55,241 nt of DNA. Source: Actinomyces culturomici (GTDB lineage Bacteria; Actinomycetota; Actinomycetes; Actinomycetales; Actinomycetaceae). The notes beneath the pieces are model-generated. The model saw only the letters and a list, made by a program, of their open reading frames with translations. It was not told where the DNA came from and did not search any database. This document shows, one piece after another, positions 10,533 to 50,108 of the stretch (positions within the stretch are counted from its first letter, which is position 1; the number at the start of each line of letters is the position of its first letter). The position numbers were made by a program, and so were the translations under genes. The stretch is taken from positions 494,814-550,054 of the forward strand of contig NZ_LS991316.1 in NCBI RefSeq assembly GCF_900499005.1, read 5' to 3'.

Positions 10533-10598
10533 CCGCCGAGAGCATCACCTTTCTTCGTCGAAAGCATCACCTTGCCCCGTCGAGGGGATCTCCTTGCC
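10533..10598 (-). repeat. Dispersed GTGATGCTTTCGG repeat, copy 2 (reversed, three units)
   Basis: Read on the minus strand: a GGAGATCCCCTCGACG unit, then CAAGGTGATGCTTTCGACG, then AAAGGTGATGCTCTCGGCG. This is the same three-unit order as the copy at 28635-28700. It lies between arcC and the leu leader. The rest of the 10505-10732 gap shows no gene. Confidence 0.75.
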
Positions 10599-28634: not shown

Positions 28635-28700
28635 GGGAGATCCCCTCGACGAAGGAAGGTGATGCTTTCGATGGGGAAAGGTGATGCTCTCGGCGGGGCG
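28635..28700 (+). repeat. Dispersed GTGATGCTTTCGG repeat, copy 3 (three units)
   Basis: GGAGATCCCCTCGACG, then GAAGGTGATGCTTTCGATG, then AAAGGTGATGCTCTCGGCG. Same order of units as the copy at 10533-10598. Confidence 0.75.
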
Positions 28701-28724
28701 GTGAGACCATTCGCCATGTCGGCG

Positions 28725-28800
28725 TTCGGCTGTTGGCGCGTTCGGCTGTTGGCGCGTTCGGCTGTTGGCGCGTTCGGCTGTTGGCGCGTTCGGTTGCTGG
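28725..28800 (+). repeat. 16-bp tandem repeat, four perfect copies plus a partial
   Basis: TTCGGCTGTTGGCGCG repeats at 28725, 28741, 28757 and 28773, then a partial copy TTCGGTTGCTGG. The period is not a multiple of three and no start or ribosome site is associated, so it is non-coding. It lies 130 bp before the glyS promoter. Confidence 0.85.
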
Positions 28801-31635: not shown

Positions 31636-32463
31636 ATGAGCGCTGCGGAAGGTTCGGCGACGGTTGTGGTCGGCAGGCCCGGGCCGCTCGGGGCGCCCGG
31701 GCGCGGCGCGTGCGCGCTCGGCGGGCCGACGCGGATCATCGCGCCGATCGTCGGGGCGGACGCGCGCGCCCTCGCCTCCGAGATCGCGGTTCTGCGCGGG
31801 GTGGCGGGCGAGCCGGTGGACCTCGTCGAGTGGCGGGTCGATCCGCTGCTCGCCGCGCTTCCCAAGGGCGCCGACGCCGACGCCGTGCTCGAGGCGGCGT
31901 GGTCCGCGGCGGTGAGCACGGCCCCCCGGCCCGTCCTCGCCTCCATCCGCACGATCGACGAGGGCGGGGCGGCGAACCTTTCCGCGTCGGAGTACTCGAG
32001 CCTCGTGCGCCTACTCGCGGGCCTCGCCGACGCGGTCGATGTCGAGATCGACCGGGCGGGGGCAAACGAGCTCATCGCCGATGCGCGCGCCTTCGGCGCG
32101 GTCGTCGTCGCGTCCCATCACGACTTCTCGGAGACGCCCTCGACGGAGGGGATCCTCGAGGTCTTCGCGCGCATGGACGCGGCGGGCGCCGACGTCCTCA
32201 AGATCGCGTGCCGGGCGAACGGGCCCGACGATGCGCTCCGCCTGCTCGGCGCGCAGGTCCGGGCGCGCGCCGAGTTCTCCCGTCCGATCATCGCGATTGG
32301 CATGGGCGGCGCCGGGGCCCTCACGCGCCTGGCCGGATCCCTCATGGGGTCGGCCGCGACCTTCGCGAGCGTCGGAACCGCGTCGGCTCCCGGCCAGTTC
32401 ACCGCCGCGCAGACGCGCGCGGTCCTCGACCTCGTCGAGCGCGGGGGCGCTCAGTCCCAGTAG
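31636..32463 (+). CDS. aroD: 3-dehydroquinate dehydratase, type I
   Basis: Class I (Schiff-base) dehydroquinase, third step of the shikimate pathway, 275 aa. E65 in VEWRVDP, R105 in SIRT, the catalytic H161/H162 in SHHDF and the Schiff-base K189 in VLKIACRA are all visible, with the C-terminal GQFTAAQ lid loop. An N-terminal extension of about 30 residues is unusual. ATG starts 1 bp after the dusB stop, so glyS-dusB-aroD is one unit. No other aro gene is in the window. Confidence 0.94.
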   Translation: MSAAEGSATVVVGRPGPLGAPGRGACALGGPTRIIAPIVGADARALASEIAVLRGVAGEPVDLVEWRVDPLLAALPKGADADAVLEAAWSAAVSTAPRPVLASIRTIDEGGAANLSASEYSSLVRLLAGLADAVDVEIDRAGANELIADARAFGAVVVASHHDFSETPSTEGILEVFARMDAAGADVLKIACRANGPDDALRLLGAQVRARAEFSRPIIAIGMGGAGALTRLAGSLMGSAATFASVGTASAPGQFTAAQTRAVLDLVERGGAQSQ

Positions 32464-32511
32464 GCATCCGCTGGCGCACCGACGCCCCGGATCGGGCCGA
32501 GCCGGCGCGAA

Positions 32512-32533
32512 GTGCTGACATTGTGCGATCCCG
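32512..32533 (+). promoter_or_regulatory. Upstream element, copy 1 (decayed lipoprotein promoter)
   Basis: A 22-bp sequence beginning GTGCTGACATT and continuing TGCGATCCCG matches 19 of 22 bases of the element at 34995-35016. In both places exactly 30 bp separate it from a TAGNNT -10 (TAGCGT at 32564-32569 here). Possible binding site of the adjacent response regulator. Confidence 0.55.
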
Positions 32534-32616
32534 AAATCATGCCTCGTATCCGCATGGCGGCGCTAGCGTCGTGAGCAAGCGGTCGGAAGAGACCGTTGAC
32601 TCTCAAGGGGACAACG

Positions 32617-32898
32617 ATGAAGAAGCACCTCGCCCTCGCGCTTGGTGCCCTGCTAAGGGCAATCCGGACACTGTTGATCCCTATGACCTGATGGCCCTCT
32701 GCTTGGTACGGAAGAAGGTCATGGATCCCTCGTACTCGGGGAACCGCTCCGGATTCGACCTGGAACGCCACTTCGCTCTCCCCGAATTCGTGAGGAGTGG
32801 ACCTGGTGAGTTCCTCGACTATTCAGATGCCGTTGCGGGGACGAACGCCTGCGAGGAGTGCGCGCGCCTCTCCGCGCGAGGGGTCCTCGCTCTTCCTG
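32617..32898 (+). pseudogene. Decayed lipoprotein gene of the island family
   Basis: ATG 32617 opens a signal-peptide-like MKKHLALALGALL, which stops after 24 codons. In another frame the sequence then matches the C-terminal part of the lipoprotein encoded at 35406-36050: NPDTVDPYDLMALCLV, RKKVMDPSYSG and DLERHFALPEF align with NPENIDSNALIAFCLV, KKGVVDPAYGG and DMERYFALPEG. About 100 codons between signal and C-terminus are missing and the frame is shifted, so this is a deletion remnant of a fourth family member. It retains the upstream element and -10 of its intact relative. Nothing else was found in the 32464-32911 gap. Confidence 0.75.
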
Positions 32899-32911
32899 GA
32901 CTACGCGCGCT

Positions 32912-33571
32912 TCAGGGTTCGCCGATCCCGCACCGTTGCGCGCGGATCGCGACTTCAGTCCGTGATGAGCAGCCGAGGAGCATGATGAGTCGGCTGACGT
33001 AGGTGCGGGCCGATCCTTCGGAGAGGTTGAGCGCCCGCGCGATCTCCCGATTCGACTTCGCCTGGGCGACTTCGATGAGGACTGGGCGGAGACGATCGGG
33101 CAGATGGGCGACGGCGGCGGCGAACGCGGAATTGTCGTCGACGGTCGAGGTGGGGACGAGGGAGGGCGGTGCGTCGAGTTCTGGGGAGATGACTCGGGTC
33201 CCCGAATATGCTGCGAGGAGGTTGGCGACAAGGCGATCGGGAGGCAGATCCTTCAAGATGATGCCGCGAACACCGGCTGCAAGTGCCCGGTTCCGCAGAT
33301 CCGGAAGAGCGAATGCGGTGTAGAGGACGACAACGATGTCCGGAGCGAGGTCGCGCAGCCGCTCGGCGGTGGAGATTCCGTCGAGGACGGGCATGCGGAC
33401 GTCGAGCAGGGCGATGTCGGGTTGGATCTGCTGCGCGATGATTAGGGCTTCTGCGCCGTCGTCGACCGCCGCGATGATCTCGAGTTCGGAGTGCTGAGAG
33501 AGAAGGTCGATGAGCCTGCCGCGCAGGTCGGTGTCGTCCTCGGCGATGAGGAGTGTGAGCGGAGCGGTCAT
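32912..33571 (-). CDS. NarL/LuxR-family response regulator
   Basis: 219 aa. Receiver domain (residues 4-120) with acidic pocket E11/D12/D13, phosphoacceptor D57 in LLDVRMP, the conserved T in VLYTAF and K in LKDLP. The C-terminal LuxR-type HTH (about 155-215) contains AQAKSNREIARALNLSEGSA and TYVSRLI. ATG overlaps the kinase stop by 4 bp. It is in an operon with the kinase and, probably, the upstream peptide gene; the likely targets are the divergent lipoprotein and secreted-protein promoters. Confidence 0.92.
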   Translation of the reverse strand: MTAPLTLLIAEDDTDLRGRLIDLLSQHSELEIIAAVDDGAEALIIAQQIQPDIALLDVRMPVLDGISTAERLRDLAPDIVVVLYTAFALPDLRNRALAAGVRGIILKDLPPDRLVANLLAAYSGTRVISPELDAPPSLVPTSTVDDNSAFAAAVAHLPDRLRPVLIEVAQAKSNREIARALNLSEGSARTYVSRLIMLLGCSSRTEVAIRAQRCGIGEP

Positions 33572-34701
33572 CGTGCGTCCTCGGCTTCCACGTGGGCAAG
33601 GGGGATTCGAGCAGAGAGGACCCACCGACCTGCGATGACGTGGGCTCCGACATTCGCTCCGAGGGCGGACGCTCGGCGGGCGAGACCTGACAAGCCGAGC
33701 CCGTTCGACGCGTCGGCGGACCCGCTGGGCCCGCTTTCGTTGACGAGGGTGACTTCGATGCTCGCGGGGCCGTCGTCGCTGGCTCTTTCGACGATGAGCG
33801 ACGCGGTGGAGCCTCTCGGGGCGTACTTGAAGATGTTGATGCACCCCTCCCGAACAAGCGTCAGGAGGAGAGCTCGTTCTTCGGCGTCGAGCTGGCGCAC
33901 GAGAGTGTCGTCGATGTCCGTCTCAAGGACGATCCCGTGGATTGCGAGTGTCCGTTCGCTGTCGCGCACCACATCGTCGAGTGATTCGGGGGAGGGAGAG
34001 AGGATGGGGGCGTGCGTGGTGTCGATGACGAAGCGGAGGTCCGCCATCGCGGCACGGGTGGCGTCGAGTGCGTCGCGGAGCTGTCCGGCGAGGTGTGGGT
34101 CGCTGGCGATGGAGAGGGCCTGTTCCTGCGCAGCGATCGCCTTCACGAGGTTTGCAACGGCGGTGTCGTGGAGGATCTGGGCGGTCGCCTGCCGGGCATC
34201 GACGATCATTGAGTGCGAGCGCTCCTGTTCGAGTGCGAGCGCGACATCGGCGGTGCGCAGGCGAGCGGCGAATCGTCTGCCGCCGAACCCGACGAGGACG
34301 CTGAGAAAGGTTCCGATGGCGAGTTCGAGGAAGCCCGCACGCACATAGGGGCCGGGAATATGAATTGCCCCGTAGCCGACGATGGCGAGCAAGGCGGAGA
34401 TGTACCAGCCCTTGTAGATCCATAGTGCGGCAACGGCGTAGATGCCGAAGCATAGGAGACCAACTGACGCAACTGTTCCGGGAACGAGGATCAAGGTGGC
34501 GAGGAGGATGAGGAAGGCGCTGGCGCCCGCGCGTGGGAACAATCCCGTCAGTGCGAAGGCTACTCCTGCAAAGACGAGGAGCGGTATCGAGACGACGCTC
34601 GCATGCCCATAGGCGACGATGTCGGCACCACCGAGGATGATGGAAAGGACCGCAAAGGCGGAAGCACCGCCTATTCCAGCCAGGGATCGTCCCGGATTCA
34701 T
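33568..34701 (-). CDS. Sensor histidine kinase (HisKA_3/NarX-DesK type)
   Basis: 377 aa. The first 140 residues hold about five to six hydrophobic membrane segments with short loops and no large extracellular sensor domain, as in peptide- or membrane-sensing kinases. A coiled region (about 145-170) precedes the phosphoacceptor H178 in QILHDTAV. The HATPase_c domain has its N-box at REGCINIFKYA (N289) and a G-box at GLGLSGL. Its partner is the overlapping response regulator. The ATG lies 18 bp after the stop of a small peptide gene; I see no strong ribosome site of its own. Confidence 0.9.
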   Translation of the reverse strand: MNPGRSLAGIGGASAFAVLSIILGGADIVAYGHASVVSIPLLVFAGVAFALTGLFPRAGASAFLILLATLILVPGTVASVGLLCFGIYAVAALWIYKGWYISALLAIVGYGAIHIPGPYVRAGFLELAIGTFLSVLVGFGGRRFAARLRTADVALALEQERSHSMIVDARQATAQILHDTAVANLVKAIAAQEQALSIASDPHLAGQLRDALDATRAAMADLRFVIDTTHAPILSPSPESLDDVVRDSERTLAIHGIVLETDIDDTLVRQLDAEERALLLTLVREGCINIFKYAPRGSTASLIVERASDDGPASIEVTLVNESGPSGSADASNGLGLSGLARRASALGANVGAHVIAGRWVLSARIPLAHVEAEDAR

Positions 34702-34719
34702 ATGTGCCGTTTCAGCGGT

Positions 34720-34869
34720 TCACTTGCACCAAGGAAGCCACGGGGCGATCAAGCAGAGCCCGCGATCGTCAACGGACTGGGCTACGAACTGCGGAAAGTC
34801 GACAGGTGCTGGGTCGAGGTCCGCATCAGCATGGAGGAAGAGAAGTGTGGAGATGAAGGCGGTGAGCAC
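34720..34869 (-). CDS. Small hydrophobic peptide encoded directly before the kinase
   Basis: A 49-codon open frame. GTG 34869 has a strong AGGGAGG 5 nt upstream. The predicted product starts with a short hydrophobic signal-like segment MLTAFISTLLFLHADA and ends in the hydrophobic Cys-containing tail GLCLIAPWLPWCK, with an acidic middle (DLDPAPVDFPQF). The ribosome site, the amphipathic layout and the position 18 bp before the sensor kinase suggest a secreted signal or bacteriocin-like peptide, but no known family is recognised. The alternative is a chance frame. The rest of the 34702-35100 gap is regulatory. Confidence 0.45.
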   Translation of the reverse strand: MLTAFISTLLFLHADADLDPAPVDFPQFVAQSVDDRGLCLIAPWLPWCK

Positions 34870-34940
34870 GGATGCCTCCCTGATCGAATGCGCTTGGCGC
34901 TCGCCAATGCGGTGGTCCATCCCGCACAGAGACGGTGAAT

Positions 34941-34951
34941 CGATAGTATCG
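34941..34951. promoter_or_regulatory. Palindrome CGATAGTATCG, possible -10/operator of the peptide-kinase transcript
   Basis: Perfect 11-bp palindrome 72 bp upstream of the peptide gene. On the minus strand it reads CGATACTATCG and contains TACTAT/GATACT, usable as a -10, so an operator overlapping the promoter is possible. Confidence 0.35.
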
Positions 34952-34994
34952 GCTACCCGTGTTGTTCGGGCTTGATCGACTTCGGGTGCGGAAA

Positions 34995-35016
34995 GTGTTG
35001 ACATTCTGCGATACCG
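34995..35016 (+). promoter_or_regulatory. Upstream element, copy 2 (secreted protein/lipoprotein promoter)
   Basis: 22 bp beginning GTGTTGACATT and continuing TGCGATACCG. It lies 30 bp before TAGTCT (35047-35052), the same spacing as copy 1, and the distance from the -10 to the ATG is also alike (47 and 48 nt). TTGACA inside it is too far from the -10 to serve as -35, so an activator site is more likely. Confidence 0.6.
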
Positions 35017-35100
35017 GTCGGCCTGTCGCCCATGGTGGTGTCTCTCTAGTCTGGAACGTGTGGGAAGAGGATTCCCCACAGTGAGAGAAGGGGTGGGACG

Positions 35101-35409
35101 ATGAAGTCTCGAATGACAGTACTCCTTGGTGCGTGCGCGGTGAGCATGGCGATCACAGGTGCGTCGATCGCCCCGGCTCATGCGGCTCCCGTGACGTGTG
35201 AAGCCATGAAGATCGCGTCAAATTCGATGAAGTCGCTGTGCCTGACTGGAACCCCTGGAAATGGCCACTACGCGGAGGCGAGAATCCAATTCTCTGGATA
35301 TTCAGCGTTTCGTCAGTCGCCGAAGGCTCCAATGGGGTCCTGGAGTGTGTCCGGAACCTTTAATGGCGGATACATTTCCTCCGGACCTTGGCCAGTTGTT
35401 GTACCGTGA
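35101..35409 (+). CDS. Small secreted protein of unknown function
   Basis: 102 aa with a clear Sec signal peptide (MKSRMTVLLGACAVSMAITG) and an AHA-A cleavage site near residue 28. The mature part of about 74 residues has two cysteines (in VTCEAM and SLCLTG) and a Gly/Ser/aromatic-rich C-terminus (GSWSVSGTFNGGYISSG), reminiscent in composition of small secreted bacteriocins, but I cannot place it in a family. GAAGG precedes ATG. It is first in the transcript from the conserved element at 34995 and is translationally coupled to the next lipoprotein (GTGA). Confidence 0.75.
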   Translation: MKSRMTVLLGACAVSMAITGASIAPAHAAPVTCEAMKIASNSMKSLCLTGTPGNGHYAEARIQFSGYSAFRQSPKAPMGSWSVSGTFNGGYISSGPWPVVVP

Positions 35410-36050
35410 GGAGGATATTGCTTTGCAGGACGCCCATCCAATTGGGGCTGGGCGTCCTGCTCGTGTTGGGTCTTTCGGGGTGTGCAGAGAACTCAGTCGA
35501 ACCGTTGCTGCATGGGCCGGGCTATTCGTCTGAATTTGAAGCACTCCGCTCGTCGTCGAATTCAGACTTCCTTATTGAAGTTCTCGAGGATGATGAGATC
35601 ACTGAAGCAGAAGTCGTTGAGGCGCGAAGTCGTTTCGTGGAGTGCGTAGCGGGATCGGGGCGACTTGAAGCAGCCAGTCTTGCAGATGGCGGATTTGAAT
35701 ATACGGGAATCGCGCTCGATGAGGGGGACTATCGGACGATCATCGATGCGTGCAACCAACAGACCTCTGCAGACACGATTACAATGCTTGCGATGAGAAT
35801 TCGCAATAACCCTGAGAATATTGATTCGAATGCGCTCATCGCTTTCTGTCTTGTGAAGAAGGGGGTTGTCGATCCTGCCTACGGGGGCGATCAATACGTA
35901 GCGGATATGGAACGGTATTTTGCGCTTCCAGAGGGTCAGAGAGTGGATGTGTTGACATTTCCGCAATTTATCGATAAGGAACGAGGTCCTGCGGCGCATA
36001 ATGCGTGCATAGAAATGAGTGCTGACGAGATTCTTGGGCTGGCGGATTAG
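35406..36050 (+). CDS. Island lipoprotein 1
   Basis: 214 aa from the GTG overlapping the preceding stop; an upstream in-frame TTG at 35388 is less likely. Lipoprotein signal with lipobox GLSGC (C26). The mature part contains FLIEVLEDDEITEAEVVEARSRFVEC split over a helical region. This pattern, I..L.DD.ITE.E..EA......C, is shared by the two following lipoproteins. The C-terminal half has conserved DVDPAY-like and ERYFALPEG motifs. The base composition is visibly more AT-rich than its neighbours, suggesting acquisition by transfer. Unknown function. Confidence 0.8.
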   Translation: MRRILLCRTPIQLGLGVLLVLGLSGCAENSVEPLLHGPGYSSEFEALRSSSNSDFLIEVLEDDEITEAEVVEARSRFVECVAGSGRLEAASLADGGFEYTGIALDEGDYRTIIDACNQQTSADTITMLAMRIRNNPENIDSNALIAFCLVKKGVVDPAYGGDQYVADMERYFALPEGQRVDVLTFPQFIDKERGPAAHNACIEMSADEILGLAD

Positions 36051-36120
36051 CGATGTCCACGGACAGTTCGGACCACGTGTGAGCGACCGGGTCGATGAGA
36101 ATGCGCGATAGAGGTATAGG

Positions 36121-36807
36121 ATGAAATGGGTGATATCTCGAATGAAGCGGTGGGGCGATCGGGGATTCCGAGGATCGATTGTGCTGTCCTTCGCCGCCTC
36201 CCTCCTCGCTTTGTCGGCGTGCTCGTCGCAAGCGGGAGGGGCGGCGGAGGCCTACAAGGCCGAGCTTGATGACCTCGTCGCGCGCTCGGCCGGCATTGAG
36301 CCGGCCGCATCGATTGTGGAGGATCGTCTGATCACCGAAGCGGAGATCGCAGAGATCGACAAGGCCTTCATCTCCTGCGTCGAAGATGCGGGCTTCCCCG
36401 GTGCGACGGTTGATGACCTTGCTGGGAACGTTGGAATTCCGATTCCCGCTGATAGCCGGGACTCTTCGGCCGCATTTTCCGAGTGTTCAACCTCGACGCT
36501 CTTCAGCGATATTCACAGCGTGTTCTGGGCGATGAGGACGAATCCGGAACACCTTACCCAGGATGAGGCGATCCTCGCCTGCCTCAAGCGGTTCGATGTC
36601 ATCGATCCGGATTATTCCGTCGAGCAGTTCAGTCGTGAGGAGGACGCCTGGATGGAGTCAGCACCGACGATCGATGGCGTGATTCAAGGTGGCCCGAACG
36701 AGGCGCACACATACACGGACCGGGAACGGGGACTCGAGCTGTTCCTCGAGTGCGAAATCGACCCTTCAATCACCCCGGATGACGAGTTTGTCGACGGGGC
36801 TCGGTAG
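36121..36807 (+). CDS. Island lipoprotein 2
   Basis: 228 aa. The signal peptide ends in LSAC (C34). The shared motif reads SIVEDRLITEAEIAEIDKAF followed by ISCVEDAGFPG. A second conserved block is NPEHLTQDEAILACL with FDVIDPDYSVEQF, paralogous to lipoproteins 1 and 3. Four further cysteines in the mature part may form disulfides. GAGG lies a few bases before ATG. Placed 70 bp after lipoprotein 1 and 20 bp before lipoprotein 3, so probably co-transcribed. Unknown function; envelope location is likely. Confidence 0.82.
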   Translation: MKWVISRMKRWGDRGFRGSIVLSFAASLLALSACSSQAGGAAEAYKAELDDLVARSAGIEPAASIVEDRLITEAEIAEIDKAFISCVEDAGFPGATVDDLAGNVGIPIPADSRDSSAAFSECSTSTLFSDIHSVFWAMRTNPEHLTQDEAILACLKRFDVIDPDYSVEQFSREEDAWMESAPTIDGVIQGGPNEAHTYTDRERGLELFLECEIDPSITPDDEFVDGAR

Positions 36808-36827
36808 GACTGAACGAAGACGGAGCG

Positions 36828-37583
36828 ATGATGAAGGTGATGAACGCAGCGGCGCGGCTTCTTACGGTCGTCGTGGTGTTCTTCGCCGCGACCGCGTGCT
36901 CGTCGCCGAAGGCGTCGAGCCCTGGGGATCGGTATCAGCCGGAATTTGATGAGCTCATCGCCTCGGTCGGAACAGACGAGCCTGCGGCCTCGATTCTCAG
37001 TGACCATCAGTTGTCCGAGTCTGAAATGCTCGAGGCGCAGCAGGTGCTGGATCAGTGCATGAAGAACGAGGGCTTCTCTGGAGCGATCTTCGAAGAGGAT
37101 CTGTGGGTGCCGGCGGGGAGTCATGTCGAGGTGGACCAGCAGGGGCGCGAGGCTCAAGACGTGCTCGAGCAATGCGACGAACGGATCCACTACAGGGAAC
37201 TCACCTACCTGTATGGGCGACTTCACCACAATCCCATGAAGCTTGACCCCGATCAGGTGGTGATTGATTGCATGGTGCGTCGAGGGGTCTTGGATCCGTC
37301 CTATACGGTCGAGCGTTTTGAGAAGGAACTCTCTACCTGGATCGAGCAGCCCCATACGATGAGGGGCGAGGTGATCATCGGAAGCCCGGGTGAGGCGTTC
37401 ACCTACATCGGGGATCGGGAGGACGGAATTCAGGTGTACATGGAGTGCGCCTACGACCCGACGAGCGGTCAGAGCTCCGAACCCCGACCTCGTAAGGCCC
37501 ATTTTCGAGTTCTCACCGACAGGGAGTTGATGAATGTCAACGCCGATGGAGACACGAGCGCCGCCTCCTCGCCCCTATTCTGA
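36828..37583 (+). CDS. Island lipoprotein 3
   Basis: 251 aa. Signal peptide with lipobox ATAC (C24). The shared motif is SILSDHQLSESEMLEAQQVL followed by DQCMKNEGFSG. The C-terminal block NPMKLDPDQVVIDCMVRRGV, then LDPSYTVERF, matches lipoproteins 1 and 2. Two adjacent ATG codons could serve as start. The last 50 bp run under the possible upstream start of the adaptor gene (37534). Families with this ITE.E..EA....C motif occur beside adaptor/ATPase/FtsX-type exporters in actinobacteria to my recollection, which is the arrangement here. Confidence 0.82.
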   Translation: MMKVMNAAARLLTVVVVFFAATACSSPKASSPGDRYQPEFDELIASVGTDEPAASILSDHQLSESEMLEAQQVLDQCMKNEGFSGAIFEEDLWVPAGSHVEVDQQGREAQDVLEQCDERIHYRELTYLYGRLHHNPMKLDPDQVVIDCMVRRGVLDPSYTVERFEKELSTWIEQPHTMRGEVIIGSPGEAFTYIGDREDGIQVYMECAYDPTSGQSSEPRPRKAHFRVLTDRELMNVNADGDTSAASSPLF

Positions 37584-37614
37584 AATCGGCTGCCCGACAG
37601 ACAAGGACTCGACG

Positions 37615-38646
37615 ATGAGGATCCCTCTCCGCCCCCTCGCGATCGGCGCCTTCGCGTGCGCCCTCGTCGGCTGCGGCGGAGCAGCCCTCGGCGCCCTCGT
37701 CCTCCCCCCCCCCGTCCCCGCCTCGCTCGACGCCGCTCCCGCACTCGACAGCGCCCCCGTTGAAACACGCGTCATCGACGACGCCCGCACGATCCCCCTC
37801 GCCTTCGTCAGAGGCGACACGACCTCGATACCGGCGCCGCTCTCCGGCAAGATGACAGCCCTTCCCATCTCCGTCGGAGACACGCTCGAATCGGGAGAGG
37901 AAATCGCCCGCATCGACGGGACGTCCCTCATCGCCCTTGCCACGACGACGCCCCTCTACCGCCCGATCGTCAACGCTCTCGAAGGCGATGACGTTCGCGC
38001 GCTGCAGACCGAACTCGCGCGCCTTGGCTACGCCGTCGACGCCACAGGCATCGCCGATTGGAACACGCGGCGCGCCGCCGCCGACCTCCTCGGCATCGAC
38101 GACGGTGCCGGAGGAGTGCCCGCCGAAGTGCCGACCACCGGATTCGCGTGGATCCCCGCGGCCTCCGTCACCGTCTCGGGCATCGAGGTCGGCCTCGGGG
38201 CGACCGTCGATCCGACTGCGGCCCTCCTCGACGTCACCGACTCCGTCGAGCGCGGCGTCCTCACCCTCCCGAAGGAGGCGATGCCCGGCGACCGCGTCAT
38301 CACCCTGTCGACGGGCGCCCTGCCCGTGCCCGCGGACGGCGTCATCACCGACCCCGACACGATTCGCGCGATCAAGGAATCCGACCAGTACGCCGCGTTC
38401 ACCACGGCCCTCGGCGACGGCGAGGGCGTCTTCTCCGTCCCATGGTCGCTCGCCACTCCCGTGAGCGCGCTCGTCGTCCCGCCCTCGTCGCTTTTCGGAA
38501 TCATCGGCGCGGACGCGTGCGTCGCCCACGACGGCAGCGTCCACAAGGTCCGGATCGTCGGCTCGCAGCTCGGTCAGTCCTACATCACCTCCGACGATCC
38601 CCTCACCGACGTCGACCTGGACACCGAGGGCCTCGAATGCCGGTGA
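37615..38646 (+). CDS. Exporter 1 membrane fusion (adaptor) protein with peptidoglycan-binding-like domain
   Basis: 343 aa. The N-terminal anchor MRIPLRPLAIGAFACALVG may also be a lipobox (LVGC). A lipoyl/barrel-sandwich region SGKMTALPISVGDTLESGEE (about 78-97) is split by a peptidoglycan-binding-type helix bundle, LEGDDVRALQTELARLGY (about 122-139), followed by a beta-barrel. It resembles the adaptor of exporter 2 at 48156-49274. ATG 37615 has AAGGA upstream; an in-frame ATG at 37534 with AGGGAG is the alternative. A run of ten C bases (37704-37713) lies just after the anchor. Overlaps the ATPase gene by 10 bp. Confidence 0.82.
   Translation: MRIPLRPLAIGAFACALVGCGGAALGALVLPPPVPASLDAAPALDSAPVETRVIDDARTIPLAFVRGDTTSIPAPLSGKMTALPISVGDTLESGEEIARIDGTSLIALATTTPLYRPIVNALEGDDVRALQTELARLGYAVDATGIADWNTRRAAADLLGIDDGAGGVPAEVPTTGFAWIPAASVTVSGIEVGLGATVDPTAALLDVTDSVERGVLTLPKEAMPGDRVITLSTGALPVPADGVITDPDTIRAIKESDQYAAFTTALGDGEGVFSVPWSLATPVSALVVPPSSLFGIIGADACVAHDGSVHKVRIVGSQLGQSYITSDDPLTDVDLDTEGLECR
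37704..37713 (+). repeat. Homopolymer of ten C bases inside the adaptor gene
   Basis: Ten consecutive cytosines encode part of VLPPPVP, 30 codons into the adaptor. Tracts of this length are prone to slippage, so the downstream frame could switch on and off. Confidence 0.8.
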
Positions 38647-39347
38647 GCCTGCGAATGCTCGGGCACCGCTTCAGCGATGGTCCCTGGCTCTTCCGCGGGC
38701 TCGACGAGACGATTCGGGAGGGCGAGGTCGTCGCGCTCATCGGCCCCTCCGGCTCCGGCAAGTCGACGCTCCTGTCGATGATCTCCGGGTGGCTGGCCCC
38801 CGCCGAGGGGAGCATCGACGTCGGCGCGCCCACGGGGGACGAGGCCGGGGCCGACGCCCGACGTGACGAACCGCGAATCGCCTGGGTCTTTCAGAACCCG
38901 CACGGCGTGCCCGGCCGAACCGTCCTCGATCACGTCGCCCTGCCGCTCCTCGCGCAAGGGCTCGCCCCCGCGGACGCGGACGATCGGGCGCGAGCCCTGC
39001 TCGACGACTTCCGGCTCGACCAGGTCGCCGAACGCCTCTTCAAGACCCTGTCGGGCGGAGAGGCGCAGCGCATGCTCCTCGCCCGCGCACTCGCCTCCGA
39101 GCCGGACGTGCTCCTCGTCGACGAACCAACCGCCCAACTCGACCAGCGCACCGCCGCGCACGTCGCCGACACGCTCACGGCGCTGCGGGATCGGGGCCTC
39201 GTCGTCCTCATCGCCACCCACGATCCGCACGTGCGCGACAGGTGTACACGCGTCATCGACCTCGCCGCCTACGCGGACGTCGATTCCGCCGACGACGGCT
39301 CGACCGGCGCCGGGGCCGCGACGCGGGAGGCGAGGCCCGATGCGTGA
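38637..39347 (+). CDS. Exporter 1 ABC ATPase (MacB/LolD type)
   Basis: 236 aa. Walker A GPSGSGKST is at residues 36-44, the Q-loop is in WVFQNPHG, the signature is LSGGEAQRM, and Walker B is VLLVDEPTAQLD with the H-loop in ATHDPH. ATG overlaps the adaptor stop by 10 bp and its stop overlaps the permease start by 8 bp. The C-terminal tail after residue 215 is Asp/Ala-rich. With the adaptor and the FtsX-like permease it should extrude a peptide, drug or lipid substrate, or act in envelope stress. Confidence 0.9.
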   Translation: MPVSLRMLGHRFSDGPWLFRGLDETIREGEVVALIGPSGSGKSTLLSMISGWLAPAEGSIDVGAPTGDEAGADARRDEPRIAWVFQNPHGVPGRTVLDHVALPLLAQGLAPADADDRARALLDDFRLDQVAERLFKTLSGGEAQRMLLARALASEPDVLLVDEPTAQLDQRTAAHVADTLTALRDRGLVVLIATHDPHVRDRCTRVIDLAAYADVDSADDGSTGAGAATREARPDA

Positions 39348-40428
39348 ACGGATGACGCGGCGCGCCCTCGCGCGCGAAGCGTGGCGCGACATGACGAGCG
39401 GCACCGCGTGGATCGGCGTGTGGAGTCTCGTCGTTTCCCTCCTCATCGGCGGAGGCATCGCCCTCGACCTTCGCGTGATCGCGCGGGAGGCGCAAGCGGC
39501 CCAGAACTACCAGCGAGCGATGGCGTCCGTCCGCGTCGTCGAATCGACCCGAGCGATCGACGGTGCCGGGTGCCGCGCCCTCGCCCGCGTCGAGGGCGTC
39601 GCAGGTGCCGTCGCGATGAGGAAGGCGGACCAGTCACTCACGCCGGCGGCGATGCCGTCCTCATCGCTTCAGACCTGGGAGTACGCCGGCGACATCGGCG
39701 GAGTGTTCGACATGGCCTCCCTTTCACCGGGTGTCGGTGTCGTCCTCGCCGAACAAGTCGGGGACGCCCTCGGCCTCGCGGCGGGAGGCGAACTCGCGCT
39801 CGCCGACGGTTCTTCCGCGCGCGTCCAGGGCGTCTACCGCTGGGACGAGACCGACGGGCGTCGCACCGGCTTCGCCTACTCGGCGCTCGTGCCCGTGCCC
39901 GCCGGCGGCGTCTTCGACGCCTGCTGGGTTCGACTCTGGCCCCTCAAGCCCGAGGTCGATTCGCTCATGCGGACCTCGGTCATCCCCTCCGGGGAGAACC
40001 AACAGGTCGAGACCTATTCGGTGAACGCGAGTCTCGGATCTTCGTTCGACGGGCAGGCCCGCTACTTCGGACGGATCACCGCCCCGATCATGTGGGCGCT
40101 CGGGGCGGGCTCGCTCGTCGTCGGAGCACTGTCCGTCCGCAGGCGCCGCCTCGAACTCGCCTCGGATCTGCACGCGGGCGTCGGAAGGGCGGACCTGCTT
40201 GCCAAACTCCTCGCGCACGCCGTCGTCATCGGGGTCGCCAGCTCCGTCCTCGTCCTTCCCGCGCTCTCCTGGGCGATCCTCCGCGCCCCTGCGGGGGACA
40301 GAGGGGACTTGTGGGCGCATGCCGGGCTGCTCGGCGCGGTCGGATTCGCCGGGCTCGTGCTCGGCGCACTGGCGGCAGGACTCCTCGTTCGAGAGACGAA
40401 GCTCTTCGACTACTTCAAGGCGCGGTAG
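39340..40428 (+). CDS. Exporter 1 FtsX/MacB-like permease
   Basis: 362 aa. One N-terminal membrane segment (about 23-43, WSLVVSLLIGGGIAL) is followed by an extracytoplasmic domain of about 200 residues and three C-terminal segments (about 250-270, 285-315 and 325-350). The RRRRLELASDLHAGVGRADL loop between C-terminal helices is the FtsX signature region. Four segments and a large outside domain are the MacB topology. The gene ends the island; a short gap separates it from the convergent GH13-like gene. Confidence 0.87.
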   Translation: MRERMTRRALAREAWRDMTSGTAWIGVWSLVVSLLIGGGIALDLRVIAREAQAAQNYQRAMASVRVVESTRAIDGAGCRALARVEGVAGAVAMRKADQSLTPAAMPSSSLQTWEYAGDIGGVFDMASLSPGVGVVLAEQVGDALGLAAGGELALADGSSARVQGVYRWDETDGRRTGFAYSALVPVPAGGVFDACWVRLWPLKPEVDSLMRTSVIPSGENQQVETYSVNASLGSSFDGQARYFGRITAPIMWALGAGSLVVGALSVRRRRLELASDLHAGVGRADLLAKLLAHAVVIGVASSVLVLPALSWAILRAPAGDRGDLWAHAGLLGAVGFAGLVLGALAAGLLVRETKLFDYFKAR

Positions 40429-40454
40429 CCCCGCGCGGTGCCCATGTCAAAGGG

Positions 40455-41600
40455 TCAGTCCCAGTAGGCGGCCGCAGCGGGGCGGATGCGCGGCGTCTCG
40501 AACCACGCGCAGGCGCCCGCCGGCACGATCGTCGACCCGTCGGCCGCCGTGCCGAGCGCGTGCGAGGAGCATAGGCGCGGCGCTCGACCGGGCACGGACA
40601 CCGGCTGCTCCGACGTGTTGAGGACGACCATCACGGGGCCGTTGAGGTGGACGACGACGCCCGGGGCCGCCCAGGCGAGCCCGTGAACGATCCCGAGGCT
40701 GCCCGTGCCGAGGCCCTTCGACGAGCGGACGGAGAGCGCGAGGGGGACGACCTCGTCGATCGGGAGTGCGCCGATGTCGGAGGCGAGCGCGTCGGGCCCG
40801 AAGAGGACGTGCGCGGCGCCCGGCAGCGAGAGCGCGTAGAGCGCGAGGGCGAGGCCGCCGCCCGGCTCCGCGCAGGCGACGTCGACGGACCACGGGGTGA
40901 TCGCGCCGAGGCGGTCGCGCGACTCGAGGGAGGAGACGACCGCGTTCTCGATCGACCTGGCGTCCCAGGCGACCCGGCGCAGCGCGTCGTCACGCAGCTG
41001 GTGGAACCAGTCCTCCTCGAGGTGGGCGCGCACGTGCGACGCGTCCGCGCCGGTGATCCGCCCGATGACGATCGGCTGGGAGTCGGCGGCCATCGCCTCC
41101 GACTCGACGAGGCGCACGAGGGCGGCGAAGCGCTCGCGCGCGCGGGCGGTGGAGCGGTCGGGGTCGCGGGAGGAGCGATACTCCCCGCATTCGCCGAGGT
41201 CGATGCCGTCGGCGCCGGCCTCGAGAATGAGGCGCGTGCGCGCGAGGACGAGGGACTCACGGTCGACCGCGTCGACGTCCGGATCGTCGAGGTCGGCGAA
41301 GGCATCGGCGGGAAGGGCGACGACGACGCGCAGCCCGAGCTCGTGGAGACGGGCGACGAGGCCCGGGACGGGCGTGCCCGCCGAGTCGACATCCTCGGGC
41401 GAGGGACTGAGGACCAGGGCGTCGAAGCCCGCGGCGCGGGCGAGGGAGGCGAACTCGAGGAGGCGCTCCGGGTCGGAGGAGTCGAGCGGGCGGTCGGGGT
41501 CGAAGATCGCGGACGAGTGCCACCAGGGCGCGGGACCCCGCGTCGCCCGATGCACGAGAACCGTGCGCACGTTCTCCTGGAGACCTCGTCGTTCCACCAT
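40455..41600 (-). CDS. GH13-like protein lacking the catalytic residues
   Basis: 381 aa, cytoplasmic. The layout follows the alpha-amylase barrel: PWWHSSAIFDPD near the N-terminus, FASLARAAGFDALVLSPSPE (beta-2 region), LHELGLRVVVALP, EAGADGIDLGECG where GH13 enzymes have GADGFRID, PIVIGRITG where they have the general acid Glu, and SLESRD where they have NHD. Thus nucleophile and acid/base appear to be absent. The C-terminal VVLNTSEQPVSVP resembles the GH13 C-terminal beta domain. It is divergent from dgt by 63 bp. The family link is by pattern, so treat the name as tentative. Confidence 0.6.
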   Translation of the reverse strand: MVERRGLQENVRTVLVHRATRGPAPWWHSSAIFDPDRPLDSSDPERLLEFASLARAAGFDALVLSPSPEDVDSAGTPVPGLVARLHELGLRVVVALPADAFADLDDPDVDAVDRESLVLARTRLILEAGADGIDLGECGEYRSSRDPDRSTARARERFAALVRLVESEAMAADSQPIVIGRITGADASHVRAHLEEDWFHQLRDDALRRVAWDARSIENAVVSSLESRDRLGAITPWSVDVACAEPGGGLALALYALSLPGAAHVLFGPDALASDIGALPIDEVVPLALSVRSSKGLGTGSLGIVHGLAWAAPGVVVHLNGPVMVVLNTSEQPVSVPGRAPRLCSSHALGTAADGSTIVPAGACAWFETPRIRPAAAAYWD

Positions 41601-42969: not shown

Positions 42970-43023
42970 GGGGGAGATCTCCTCGACGCGGCAAGGTGAT
43001 GCTTTCAGCGGGGAAAGGTGATG
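42970..43023 (+). repeat. Dispersed GTGATGCTTTCGG repeat, copy 4, left part interrupted by IS30
   Basis: GGAGATCTCCTCGACGCGG, then CAAGGTGATGCTTTCAGCG, then AAAGGTGATG, where the insertion sequence begins. Continues at 44302 after the element. The final ATG (43021-43023) is the target duplication. Confidence 0.8.
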
Positions 43024-44301
43024 GGCGGTTTCAGGTGGTGAGTGCAACGCCTTGAGTGTGTGGGGTGGTTGCTGTGGGTTTTCGTTGTTCTGAGGCGGTT
43101 CGCCGCCAGGTGTTGGATCTGCTGATTGAGGGTGTGCCGGTTAGGCAGGTGCATTTGCGGGTGGGTGTCGCGGTGTGCACGATCCGCAAGTGGGCCAAAG
43201 ATTGGGGCATGACGTTTCGTGTGGGTTCGCGAGGCGGGTGGGTGGGCAGTGCGCCCGCCGACCCTGTGGAGGGGCTGGTCAGCGGGGTCGGGCATGGGGC
43301 CCGGTTGACGATCGGGGGCCGCCAGCTCATCGAGTACTTGCACGGTCAGGGGATGAGCATGCGGGGGATCGCCCGCGAGCTTGGGGTGGCGGCCTCGACG
43401 GTGAAGCGGGAGTTGGATCGTGGGGGCGGCCAGTATCGGGCGGTACGCGCTCATGAGGAGGCTGCCGGGAGGCGGGCTCGTCCCAAGCCGTTCAAGCTGG
43501 AGGATCCTCGGCTGCGCGCCTTCGTGGTCGCCAAGCTTAACGAGCACTGGTCGCCTGAGCAGATCTCGCGGGCCTGGGCGTGTGGGGACAATAGGGGGGT
43601 GACGATCAGCCCGGAGACGATCTATCAGGCCCTGTATGTGCATGGGCGCGGCGCGTTGCGTCAAGAGCTCAAGGTGGAAAAGGCGTTGCGGTCGGGGCGC
43701 ACGCGTCGCCTGGCGCGTTCGCCGCTGGCTCTGGCGCGCTCGAAGGGGAAGTCGTGGGTGGAGGGCGCCAGGATCGTGGACCGGCCCCAAGAGGTGGAAG
43801 GACGCCAGGTTCCGGGCCATTGGGAGGGGGATCTGATCGTGGGGGCGAACAACAAGAGCGCCGCGATCACCCTGGTGGAACGCACCACGGGCTACCTGCT
43901 CGTCCGGCCCCTGCCAGCGTGCCACGACACGGCAAGTGTGATCGACGTGCTCGCCGACATGATCAGCCCTTTCCCGCTCACGCTTCGCGAGACGATCACG
44001 TGGGACCAGGGAGGGGAGATGGCGAACGCGAAAGACCTGACCAGCCGGACCAAAACGAAGGTGTATTTCGCCGACCCGCATTCGCCCTGGCAGCGCGGGT
44101 CCAACGAGAACACCAACGGCCTGTTGCGCGACTACTTCCCTAAAGGCACCGACCTGAACGACTATCCCCCAGAAGCATTCGCCGAGGCCGAACGCCAACT
44201 CAACACCCGACCCCGCAAACGCCACGGCTGGAAAACACCCGCCGAACTCATGCAAAAATTACTCGACGACAACGCCGTTGCACTCACCGCCTGAAACCGC
44301 C
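43024..44301 (+). mobile_element. IS30-family insertion sequence, complete
   Basis: 1278 bp. The ends are inverted repeats of about 25 bp with one mismatch: GGCGGTTTCAGG(T/C)GGTGAG followed by TGCAAC, left end at 43024, right end at 44301. A 3-bp ATG target duplication flanks it (43021-43023 and 44302-44304), as expected for IS30. It carries one intact transposase gene that ends inside the right inverted repeat. The element split a dispersed repeat unit. Confidence 0.92.
43056..44294 (+). CDS. IS30-family transposase
   Basis: 412 aa. The N-terminal HTH ([16 protein letters not shown] and [11 protein letters not shown]) is followed by a second HTH near residues 97-120 ([20 protein letters not shown]). 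The DDE catalytic core has D259 in [11 protein letters not shown]317 in TWDQGGEM and E351 in [16 protein letters not shown], the classical IS30 signatures. The C-terminus has [19 protein letters not shown] start with no strong ribosome site, common in insertion sequences. The frame is uninterrupted, so the element may be active. Confidence 0.95.
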
Positions 44302-44340
44302 ATGCTTTCGGCGGGGAAAGGTGATGCTTTCGGCGGGACG
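44302..44340 (+). repeat. Dispersed GTGATGCTTTCGG repeat, copy 4, right part
   Basis: ATGCTTTCGGCGGGG, then AAAGGTGATGCTTTCGGCGGG. It resumes exactly where the left part stopped if the IS and one ATG are removed. The repeat contains GTG and ATG codons that give a false upstream extension to dnaG. Confidence 0.8.
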
Positions 44341-49504: not shown

Positions 49505-49574
49505 TTTCTGCGGGTGAGGCGTCGGCCTCCAGGCTCCCGGCACTCCGTTCCTTCCACGTGCGAGTCACCCGGAT

Positions 49575-50108
49575 CGCACACTCGACGACCTTCCCCACCC
49601 GCCAAGCACGCCGAGACGGCGATCCAGGTGACGCGGGCCGCTGATTCCGGGCGTGGGGCGACTTGGATCGCACACTCGACGGCCCTTCCCGCCCGCGAAT
49701 CCCGCCGAGACGGCGATGTAGGTCATGCGAGAGGCTGATTCCGGGTGTCAGGCCACCTGGATCGCACACTCGACGACCTTTCCCACCCGCGAAGCCCGCC
49801 GAGGCGGCGATCCAGGTGACGCGGGCCGCTGATTCCGGGCGTGGGGCGACTTGGATCGCACACTCGACGACCTTTCCCGCCCGCGAAGCCCGCCGAGGCG
49901 GCGATCCAGGTCACGCGGGCCCCTGATTCCGGGCACGGAACAACCTTGATCGCACACTCGACGACCCATCCCACCCGCCAAACTCGCCGAGGCGGCGATC
50001 CAGGTCATGCGGGCCCCTGATTCCGGGCACGGAACAACCTTGATCGCACACTCGACGACCCGCCCCGCCCGCGAAGCCCGCCGAGACGGCGATGTAGGTC
50101 ATGCGGGG
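49575..50108 (+). repeat. 94-bp tandem repeat array, five full units and a partial sixth
   Basis: Units begin with CGCACACTCGACG at 49575, 49669, 49763, 49857, 49951 and 50045, an exact 94-bp period. Each contains CCGCCGAG(A/G)CGGCGAT and a CTGATTCCGGG segment near the end. Units differ by point changes, and the last diverges after about 60 bp. There is no open frame across the units. Confidence 0.92.

Follow-up and report, generated by a model that had tools for sequence, protein, structure and literature searches.

A putative bacteriocin-immunity island combining lipoproteins with an FtsX-type pump in Actinomyces culturomici

Introduction

The lactococcin 972 (Lcn972) and NisI/NisFEG systems are among the closest described counterparts of a gene island at positions 32512-40428 of the Actinomyces culturomici DNA analyzed here. 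Lactococcin 972 binds lipid II and acts on wall synthesis (PMC9964109), and two accompanying genes could form an ATP-binding cassette (ABC) transporter involved in immunity (PMC4055356). Actinobacterial loci of the Lcn972 kind have been described, with a gene organisation in P. acnes that differs from the others (PMC4289311). In the NisI/NisFEG system immunity is divided between a binding lipoprotein, NisI, and an expelling transporter, NisFEG (PMC8538875). The stretch studied, called the window, is 55,241 nucleotides (nt) long and lies on a 1.6 Mb contig (NZ_LS991316.1, positions 494,814 to 550,054) of the 2.56 Mb genome; gene starts are the authors' choices. On its plus strand the island encodes a small secreted-type protein (the cargo), three lipoproteins (LipA, LipB and LipC), an adaptor, an ABC ATPase and an FtsX-type permease, and on its minus strand a histidine kinase and a response regulator. 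All of these had been named in a preliminary description of the stretch, and their presence was confirmed by Pfam, hydropathy and sequence identities. The whole is read as a regulated bacteriocin-immunity island in which lipoprotein and FtsX pump would act as immunity, with a rough probability of 0.64. By sequence, this reading rests on gene order and its recurrence, on co-divergence of cargo and lipoprotein, on a pair of promoter elements and on a decayed cassette; killing, binding, pumping direction and regulation we infer.

By analogy, the island may work like the NisI/NisFEG and Lcn972 systems. As in the Lcn972 family (PMC4055356, PMC12345188), putative immunity genes come after the gene for a small secreted protein, and an ABC ATPase is among their products. 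The mature cargo of the window, however, has two cysteines, whereas lactococcin 972 is described as having none (PMC8538875). Its partner consists of lipoprotein, adaptor, ATPase and FtsX permease and not of a seven-transmembrane (7TM) DUF1430 protein; TIGR01654, the model for that partner, had no match among the ten island proteins scanned. A division of labour between binding lipoprotein and expelling ABC transporter would be shared with NisI/NisFEG (PMC8538875), and a lipobox is present here, but the lipoproteins of the island match no family and its pump, which includes an adaptor, is of the FtsX type. Pfam and NCBIfam scans of the operon proteins showed no lanthipeptide enzyme. An adaptor, an ATPase and a putative FtsX-like permease with a large external domain resemble the make-up of MacAB-type pumps, but the adaptor here has a peptidoglycan-binding domain, and a lipoprotein gene precedes the adaptor in 64 of 80 loci. 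The actifensins are defensin-like and have more cysteines than the two found in the mature cargo of the window, which matches no family. They are bacteriocins of Actinomyces and come from the same wider bacterial group (PMC6989792). Strings of non-identical immunity genes are also described for EsaG, which confers immunity to a toxin of the type VII secretion system (PMC9484751); here, in contrast, lipoproteins stand beside small secreted proteins, and the genome G150 has two copies identical over 609 nt.

Recurrence of the lipoprotein-pump module

Related loci were fetched with FtsX alone, and the best 80 of 98 are referred to as the named loci; they come from Actinomyces, Schaalia, Bifidobacterium, Sanguibacter, Microbacteriaceae and others. 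A lipoprotein was found no more than 1.5 kb upstream of the adaptor and on the same strand in 64 of the 80 named loci, with a median gap of 112 nt, and somewhere in the locus in 74. It came after FtsX in L076, L077, L139 and L150. The recurrence of this order shows that the grouping of genes proposed in the preliminary description goes beyond chance. The loci under search also served to iterate the lipoprotein profile, which matched 144 open reading frames (ORFs) in the first round, built from the three window proteins, 151 in the last round and none among reversed ORFs. This profile search covered 120 loci, 40 of which had been fetched by the lipoproteins themselves.

Relatives of the three lipoproteins were found by profile in 33 of 213 genomes of the family. 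Among 35 genomes of the genus, FtsX was present in 18, the lipoprotein in 19 and both in 17; a lipoprotein thus accompanied FtsX in 17 of 18 genomes, vs 2 of 17 genomes without FtsX (Fisher p 6e-7). FtsX occurred alone in G169, and the lipoprotein alone in G173 and G175. The expected co-occurrence of lipoproteins and exporter was therefore borne out, but the kinase-regulator pair, which had been placed in the same system, is rare across loci. Exporter-less pairs of cargo and lipoprotein were seen in the fetched stretches, three in G166 and one in G173. In the Schaalia odontolytica group, lipoprotein-exporter operons were present and no cargo was detected. The core of the island is a recurring operon for a Sec-type secreted protein, one or more lipoproteins, an adaptor, an ABC ATPase and an FtsX permease.

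The cargo protein and its position

The cargo gene (35101-35409, plus strand) encodes a 102-amino-acid protein of secreted type, a putative bacteriocin with a small family of its own. By a home-made rule, its hydrophobic N-terminus with an AHA-A site is a Sec-type signal, a feature shared with the Lcn972 family; the mature part, encoded by 35185-35406, has two cysteines. Ten matches to the cargo family were obtained in 6 of 213 genomes, and a lipoprotein match on the same strand follows each of them within 204 nt. Six were profile members picked for that position; the four new matches (in G166, G173, G152 and, as a fragment, G150) have it as well.

The position before the lipoprotein was also surveyed with a strict home-made cargo rule (60-160 amino acids, charged and hydrophobic N-terminus, AxA site, ribosome-binding site). 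In 25 of 64 loci the lipoprotein was immediately preceded by the end of a small secreted-type ORF, vs 89 of 4000 random anchors, and the same rule applied at control starts gave 0 of 82 for the adaptor, 3 of 79 for the ATPase and 4 of 82 for FtsX. Thirty-one cargo candidates were chosen by hand; PF09683 matched eight of them and TIGR01653 nine (E values up to 0.1). An Lcn972-type profile seeded with eight candidates had 14 matches over the 120 loci. Twelve of these, among them all eight seeds, stand directly before a lipoprotein on the same strand and so hold the cargo position of this operon; the remaining matches are on the opposite strand in L115 and not adjacent to a lipoprotein in L038. 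A set of 12 proteins of this type matches the solved lactococcin 972 (2lgn, 5e-12) and the family member 9hkj (3.5e-9). Locus L046 has the gene order of the window, with regulator and kinase followed by an Lcn972 protein, lipoprotein, adaptor, ATPase and FtsX.

The cargo of the window itself had no match to PF09683 or TIGR01653. A second group of cargo proteins has an A-R-I motif in common; a relationship of the window cargo to this group was rejected (hhalign probability 0.3%). PF09683 was found in 6 of 296 genomes of the class and in 21 of 396 genomes of the order, one genome being in both sets. An ORF of about 700 amino acids is preceded in L189, L190 and L192 by a row of two or three genes of the lactococcin-972 type; the genomes concerned measure 5.7 and 7.4 Mb.

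The lipoproteins and their pairing with the cargo

The three lipoprotein genes lipA (35418-36050), lipB (36121-36807) and lipC (36828-37583) follow the cargo gene on the plus strand. LipC and LipA are 32% and 27% identical to LipB, respectively. Their lipoboxes are LSGC, LSAC and ATAC; across 91 sequences the conservation of the lipobox cysteine is 90% or more, and four further cysteines are among the best conserved positions. No Pfam family at E values up to 1 and no NCBIfam match was found for the lipoproteins (three weak, chance-level NCBIfam rows for LipC), and the profile gave only weak matches in the PDB, mostly at the lipobox end. A first scan of genome contigs with lipoprotein queries confirmed no relative.

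LipA is 70% identical to a G171 lipoprotein that stands beside a cargo whose mature part is 81% identical to that of the window. LipB is 66% identical to a G150 lipoprotein with a cargo only 34% identical to that of the window, and 88% identical to another G150 copy, which is preceded by a decayed cargo. LipC is 57% identical to a second G150 lipoprotein. From these identities LipA looks like the cognate immunity protein, whereas LipB and LipC look like spares, LipB being proposed to give immunity to another cargo type.

Within the cargo family of the window, identity between cargo proteins followed identity between the adjacent lipoproteins (Mantel r 0.77, p 1e-4, nine pairs, uncorrected for phylogeny). 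Nine of the ten cargo-family matches entered this test, the G150 fragment being left out. Lipoprotein paralogues within one genome split together with their cargo types (G166a vs G166b and c, G152a vs b), which argues against mere descent. When FtsX similarity was removed, the correlation between cargo and lipoprotein persisted in 25 named loci (partial r 0.44, p 0.0002) and in 23 less redundant loci (partial r 0.35, p 0.0006).

The lipoprotein array of G150 (L034:6552-11757) contains the two copies that share 609 identical nt, a copy that is split between two frames and a copy preceded by a decayed cargo. G166 (L037-L040, L059, L060) has ten lipoprotein-family matches and one FtsX match in the genome; most of its cargo-lipoprotein pairs or lone lipoproteins have no adjoining pump.

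The adaptor-ATPase-FtsX pump

The pump is encoded on the plus strand by the genes for the adaptor (37615-38646), the ABC ATPase (38637-39347) and the permease (39340-40428). The adaptor matched PF01471 (PG_binding_1) at 23.3 bits with a cut-off of 23, and there was a weak lipoyl-like match to PF00364 at 13.7 bits with a cut-off of 22.1; the adaptor alignment comprised 28 sequences. The ATPase (PF00005, 1.7e-32) is of the FtsE/LolD type, with the FtsE model closest and LolD near. It scored 131 bits with TIGR03608, under the cut-off of 254.85, and the MacB model matched the ATPase only. Hydropathy gave the permease about four membrane segments around a large external domain. It was assigned to the FtsX/MacB type by topology, alignment and neighbours; no Pfam family (E values up to 1) and no NCBIfam family beyond chance-level rows was matched. 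A role in anti-phage defence was rejected, as among seven proteins PADLOC gave matches for the ATPase only.

MacB-type pumps export peptides in some systems, and together with the close operon order this would fit an exporter that serves as the secretion route of the cargo, with the lipoprotein as a chaperone or processing helper. Such a role is very unlikely. A Sec-like N-terminus with an AxA site is part of the cargo itself, which therefore does not depend on the pump for membrane crossing, and cargo-lipoprotein pairs stand without a nearby exporter in G166 and G173. The same argument from a Sec signal has been made for mediterrocin, a member of the lactococcin 972 family (PMC12345188). For the exporter, clearing is accordingly a more likely role than secretion.

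Envelope maintenance is another function to be weighed for this pump. Lipoprotein and MacB/LolCDE-like pump would then remove wall-active compounds or traffic lipoproteins in general, and the small protein would be an accessory or a passenger. The operons in which no cargo was found (the Schaalia odontolytica group; 39 of 64 named loci) and the closeness of the ATPase to the FtsE and LolD models speak for this. It is nonetheless unlikely, given the enrichment of the cargo position far above controls, the co-divergence of cargo and lipoprotein beyond that of FtsX, and the pairs of cargo and lipoprotein found without an exporter nearby.

Promoter element, decayed cassette and regulation

Two copies of the element TGACATTNTGCGATNCC lie on the plus strand of the island, at 32516-32532, with a -10-like TAGCGT at 32564, and at 34999-35015, with TAGTCT at 35047. 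The pattern was derived from these two copies themselves and had just these two matches, at up to two mismatches, in the 2.56 Mb genome; the reversed control never matched. The second copy is 102 nt before the cargo start, and the first is 101 nt before the start of a cassette remnant. In L034 and L035 the element recurs with one and two mismatches; its distance to the cargo is again 102 nt, and in all four copies a TAGNNT box stands equally far behind it. It was absent from five other loci scanned (L036, L038, L039, L046 and L058). The fixed geometry suggests a dedicated promoter, to which the neighbouring regulator may bind.

The remnant behind the first copy (32617-32894, plus strand) begins with a signal-peptide start in a 24-codon ORF and continues with an out-of-frame lipoprotein C-terminal fragment (32655-32894). 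The lipoprotein profile matched 32655-32864 with an E value of 1.2e-9, and identities by tblastn were 53% with the last G150 lipoprotein, 49% with that of G171 and 40% with LipA. Judged by these matches, 32516-32894 is the wreck of a fourth cassette with the C-terminal part of a LipA-type lipoprotein. The preliminary description had not mentioned it.

The response regulator gene (32912-33571, minus strand) is of the NarL/LuxR type (PF00072, 6.1e-21; PF00196, GerE, 7.7e-9). The kinase gene (33568-34701, minus strand) encodes a protein with a run of hydrophobic segments at residues 7-140 by hydropathy and a weak UhpB-like NCBIfam match at residues 239-359 (E value 3e-4); no Pfam match was found. 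A kinase relative in G150 is 60% identical. Besides the window, four of 40 family loci gave kinase matches, those of G150, G152 and G133 and, as a fragment only, that of G171; a diverged kinase would escape this search. Among the 80 named loci there was one kinase match, the same G171 fragment (L074), and regulator matches were found in four more (L107, L124, L130 and L148). In the window, G150, G152 and G133 the pair is divergent from the operon. The module does not regularly include the two-component system, which in the window probably controls the island.

The 49-codon ORF between kinase and cargo (34720-34869, minus strand, GTG start) is probably no gene. It had been described as encoding a hydrophobic peptide that might be the signal or cargo of the system. 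Matches were found in 6 of 34 other genus genomes with a best E value of 0.42, which is noise level, and none rose above noise even in G150 and G171, where the operon occupies the same site. At the hydropathy threshold used, the peptide showed no hydrophobic segment of 19 residues. The peptide was accordingly rejected as a gene, and its proposed part as signal or cargo is not supported.

The small secreted protein could instead be a pheromone for signalling within the species, perceived either by the kinase or via the lipoproteins, with the pump clearing or modulating it. The divergent kinase-regulator pairs of the window, G150, G152 and G133 would suit such a circuit, as would the occurrence of TGACATTNTGCGATNCC only before cassettes in its own genome. 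A signalling role is nevertheless quite unlikely: the pair is rare, with one kinase fragment and four regulator matches in 80 named loci, the lactococcin-972 type of bacteriocin is frequent among the cargo candidates, and several diverged lipoproteins in a row fit immunity better.

Proposed function and significance

In the proposed bacteriocin-immunity island, the kinase and the NarL-type regulator probably switch on the promoter carrying TGACATTNTGCGATNCC. The operon would then give a mature cargo of about 74 residues, Sec-secreted and probably with one disulphide. By analogy with lactococcin 972, the cargo may attack the envelope of related bacteria. LipA, on the outer face of the membrane, would bind the cargo of the producer itself, and the adaptor-ATPase-FtsX pump would expel the cargo so bound from the membrane. 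Protection against the cargo types of neighbours might come from LipB and LipC. A bacteriocin-like system with immunity lipoproteins had been offered, beside envelope sensing, in the preliminary description; it is the best supported guess, given Lcn972-type cargo in 12 of 120 loci and the co-divergence of cargo and lipoprotein.

Several results weigh against this reading. The cargo has no Pfam family at E values up to 1 and no NCBIfam family beyond chance-level rows, and it matches no known bacteriocin family, and its membership in the Lcn972 sequence family was rejected (hhalign probability to the Lcn972 set 1%). The lipoproteins match no known immunity family in Pfam or NCBIfam and have no annotated relative. 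No cargo was called by the strict home-made rule in 39 of 64 loci with a lipoprotein upstream. Besides the nine-pair test made without phylogenetic correction, the raw correlations with FtsX in the 25 loci are high, 0.76 for the cargo and 0.88 for the lipoprotein. The module was present at only 2 of 29 loci found with PF09683 (L231 ends at the match). Of ten proteins downstream of other PF09683 matches, five scored 26-107 bits with the 7TM partner model, below its cut-off of 189, and the other five had no match at all. The module is not a requirement for lactococcin-972 proteins.

A wider interpretation is put forward tentatively, at somewhat less than even odds. The island may belong to a widespread polymorphic bacteriocin system of actinobacteria, in which swappable secreted proteins and their cognate four-cysteine lipoproteins share one conserved pump and spare lipoproteins are an inherited record of the bacteriocins of rivals. 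The swappable cargo would include proteins of the lactococcin-972 type and several unrelated in sequence. In a full-text literature search, with most subscription papers outside its range, no description of a lipoprotein-adaptor-ATPase-FtsX module with such cargo was found. If the proposed function of the island is right, the operon would be a handle for secreted antibacterial proteins missed by sequence models, the cargo of the window included, and a second immunity architecture for lactococcin-972-type proteins would be at hand. Paired and spare lipoproteins would also make the specificity of bacteriocin immunity directly testable.

Gene layout, flanks and repeats

The close packing of the island noted earlier was confirmed. 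The regulator and kinase genes share 4 nt, and the adaptor, ATPase and FtsX genes each overlap the next. The chosen start of lipA is a TTG after GGAGG, 9 nt past the cargo stop. The G+C content is 51-60% in the cargo-lipoprotein region (35.0-37.5 kb) vs 67-73% in the exporter. No Rfam family above cut-off and no tRNA was found in the window, and a consensus scan of 32400-40600 detected no terminator; the single promoter-like site that it gave is what chance would produce.

Pfam agrees with the flanks given before, glyS, dusB and aroD on one side and dgt and dnaG on the other; a minus-strand ORF between these flanks, from 40455 to about 41.6 kb, has no Pfam match. The distance between dusB and dgt is 10.0, 13.3 and 9.6 kb in the own genome, G150 and G171, respectively, with FtsX in between. 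It is 2.1-3.7 kb without FtsX in between in eight genus members (G167, G168, G162, G176, G155, G153, G156 and G170), and 5-25 kb in many of the remaining ones. In G148 the two genes are rearranged and 42 kb apart, with FtsX between them, and in G147, G162, G164 and G168 FtsX lies 11-13 kb past dgt. The differing spacing and FtsX positions show that the site is variable across the genus.

Between dgt and dnaG lies an element (43024-44301) with 26-nt inverted repeats and a transposase with an integrase core (43056-44294; PF00665, PF13936), which we take to be of the IS30 type. It sits among copies of the 22-nt unit GTGATGCTNTCGNCGGGGAAAG. This unit has 84 copies genome-wide at up to three mismatches, vs none in the reversed control, and is often doubled in a direct 22-nt step; its sites in the window are 2579-2627, 10533-10598, 28645-28698, 42996-43017 and 44293-44337. 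A 94-nt tandem unit with complementary stretches within it is repeated 5.8 times at 49567-50107 (85% matching). Shortly 5' of glyS, at 28722-28793, the 16-nt unit GCGTTCGGCTGTTGGC forms a perfect tandem repeat of 4.5 copies.

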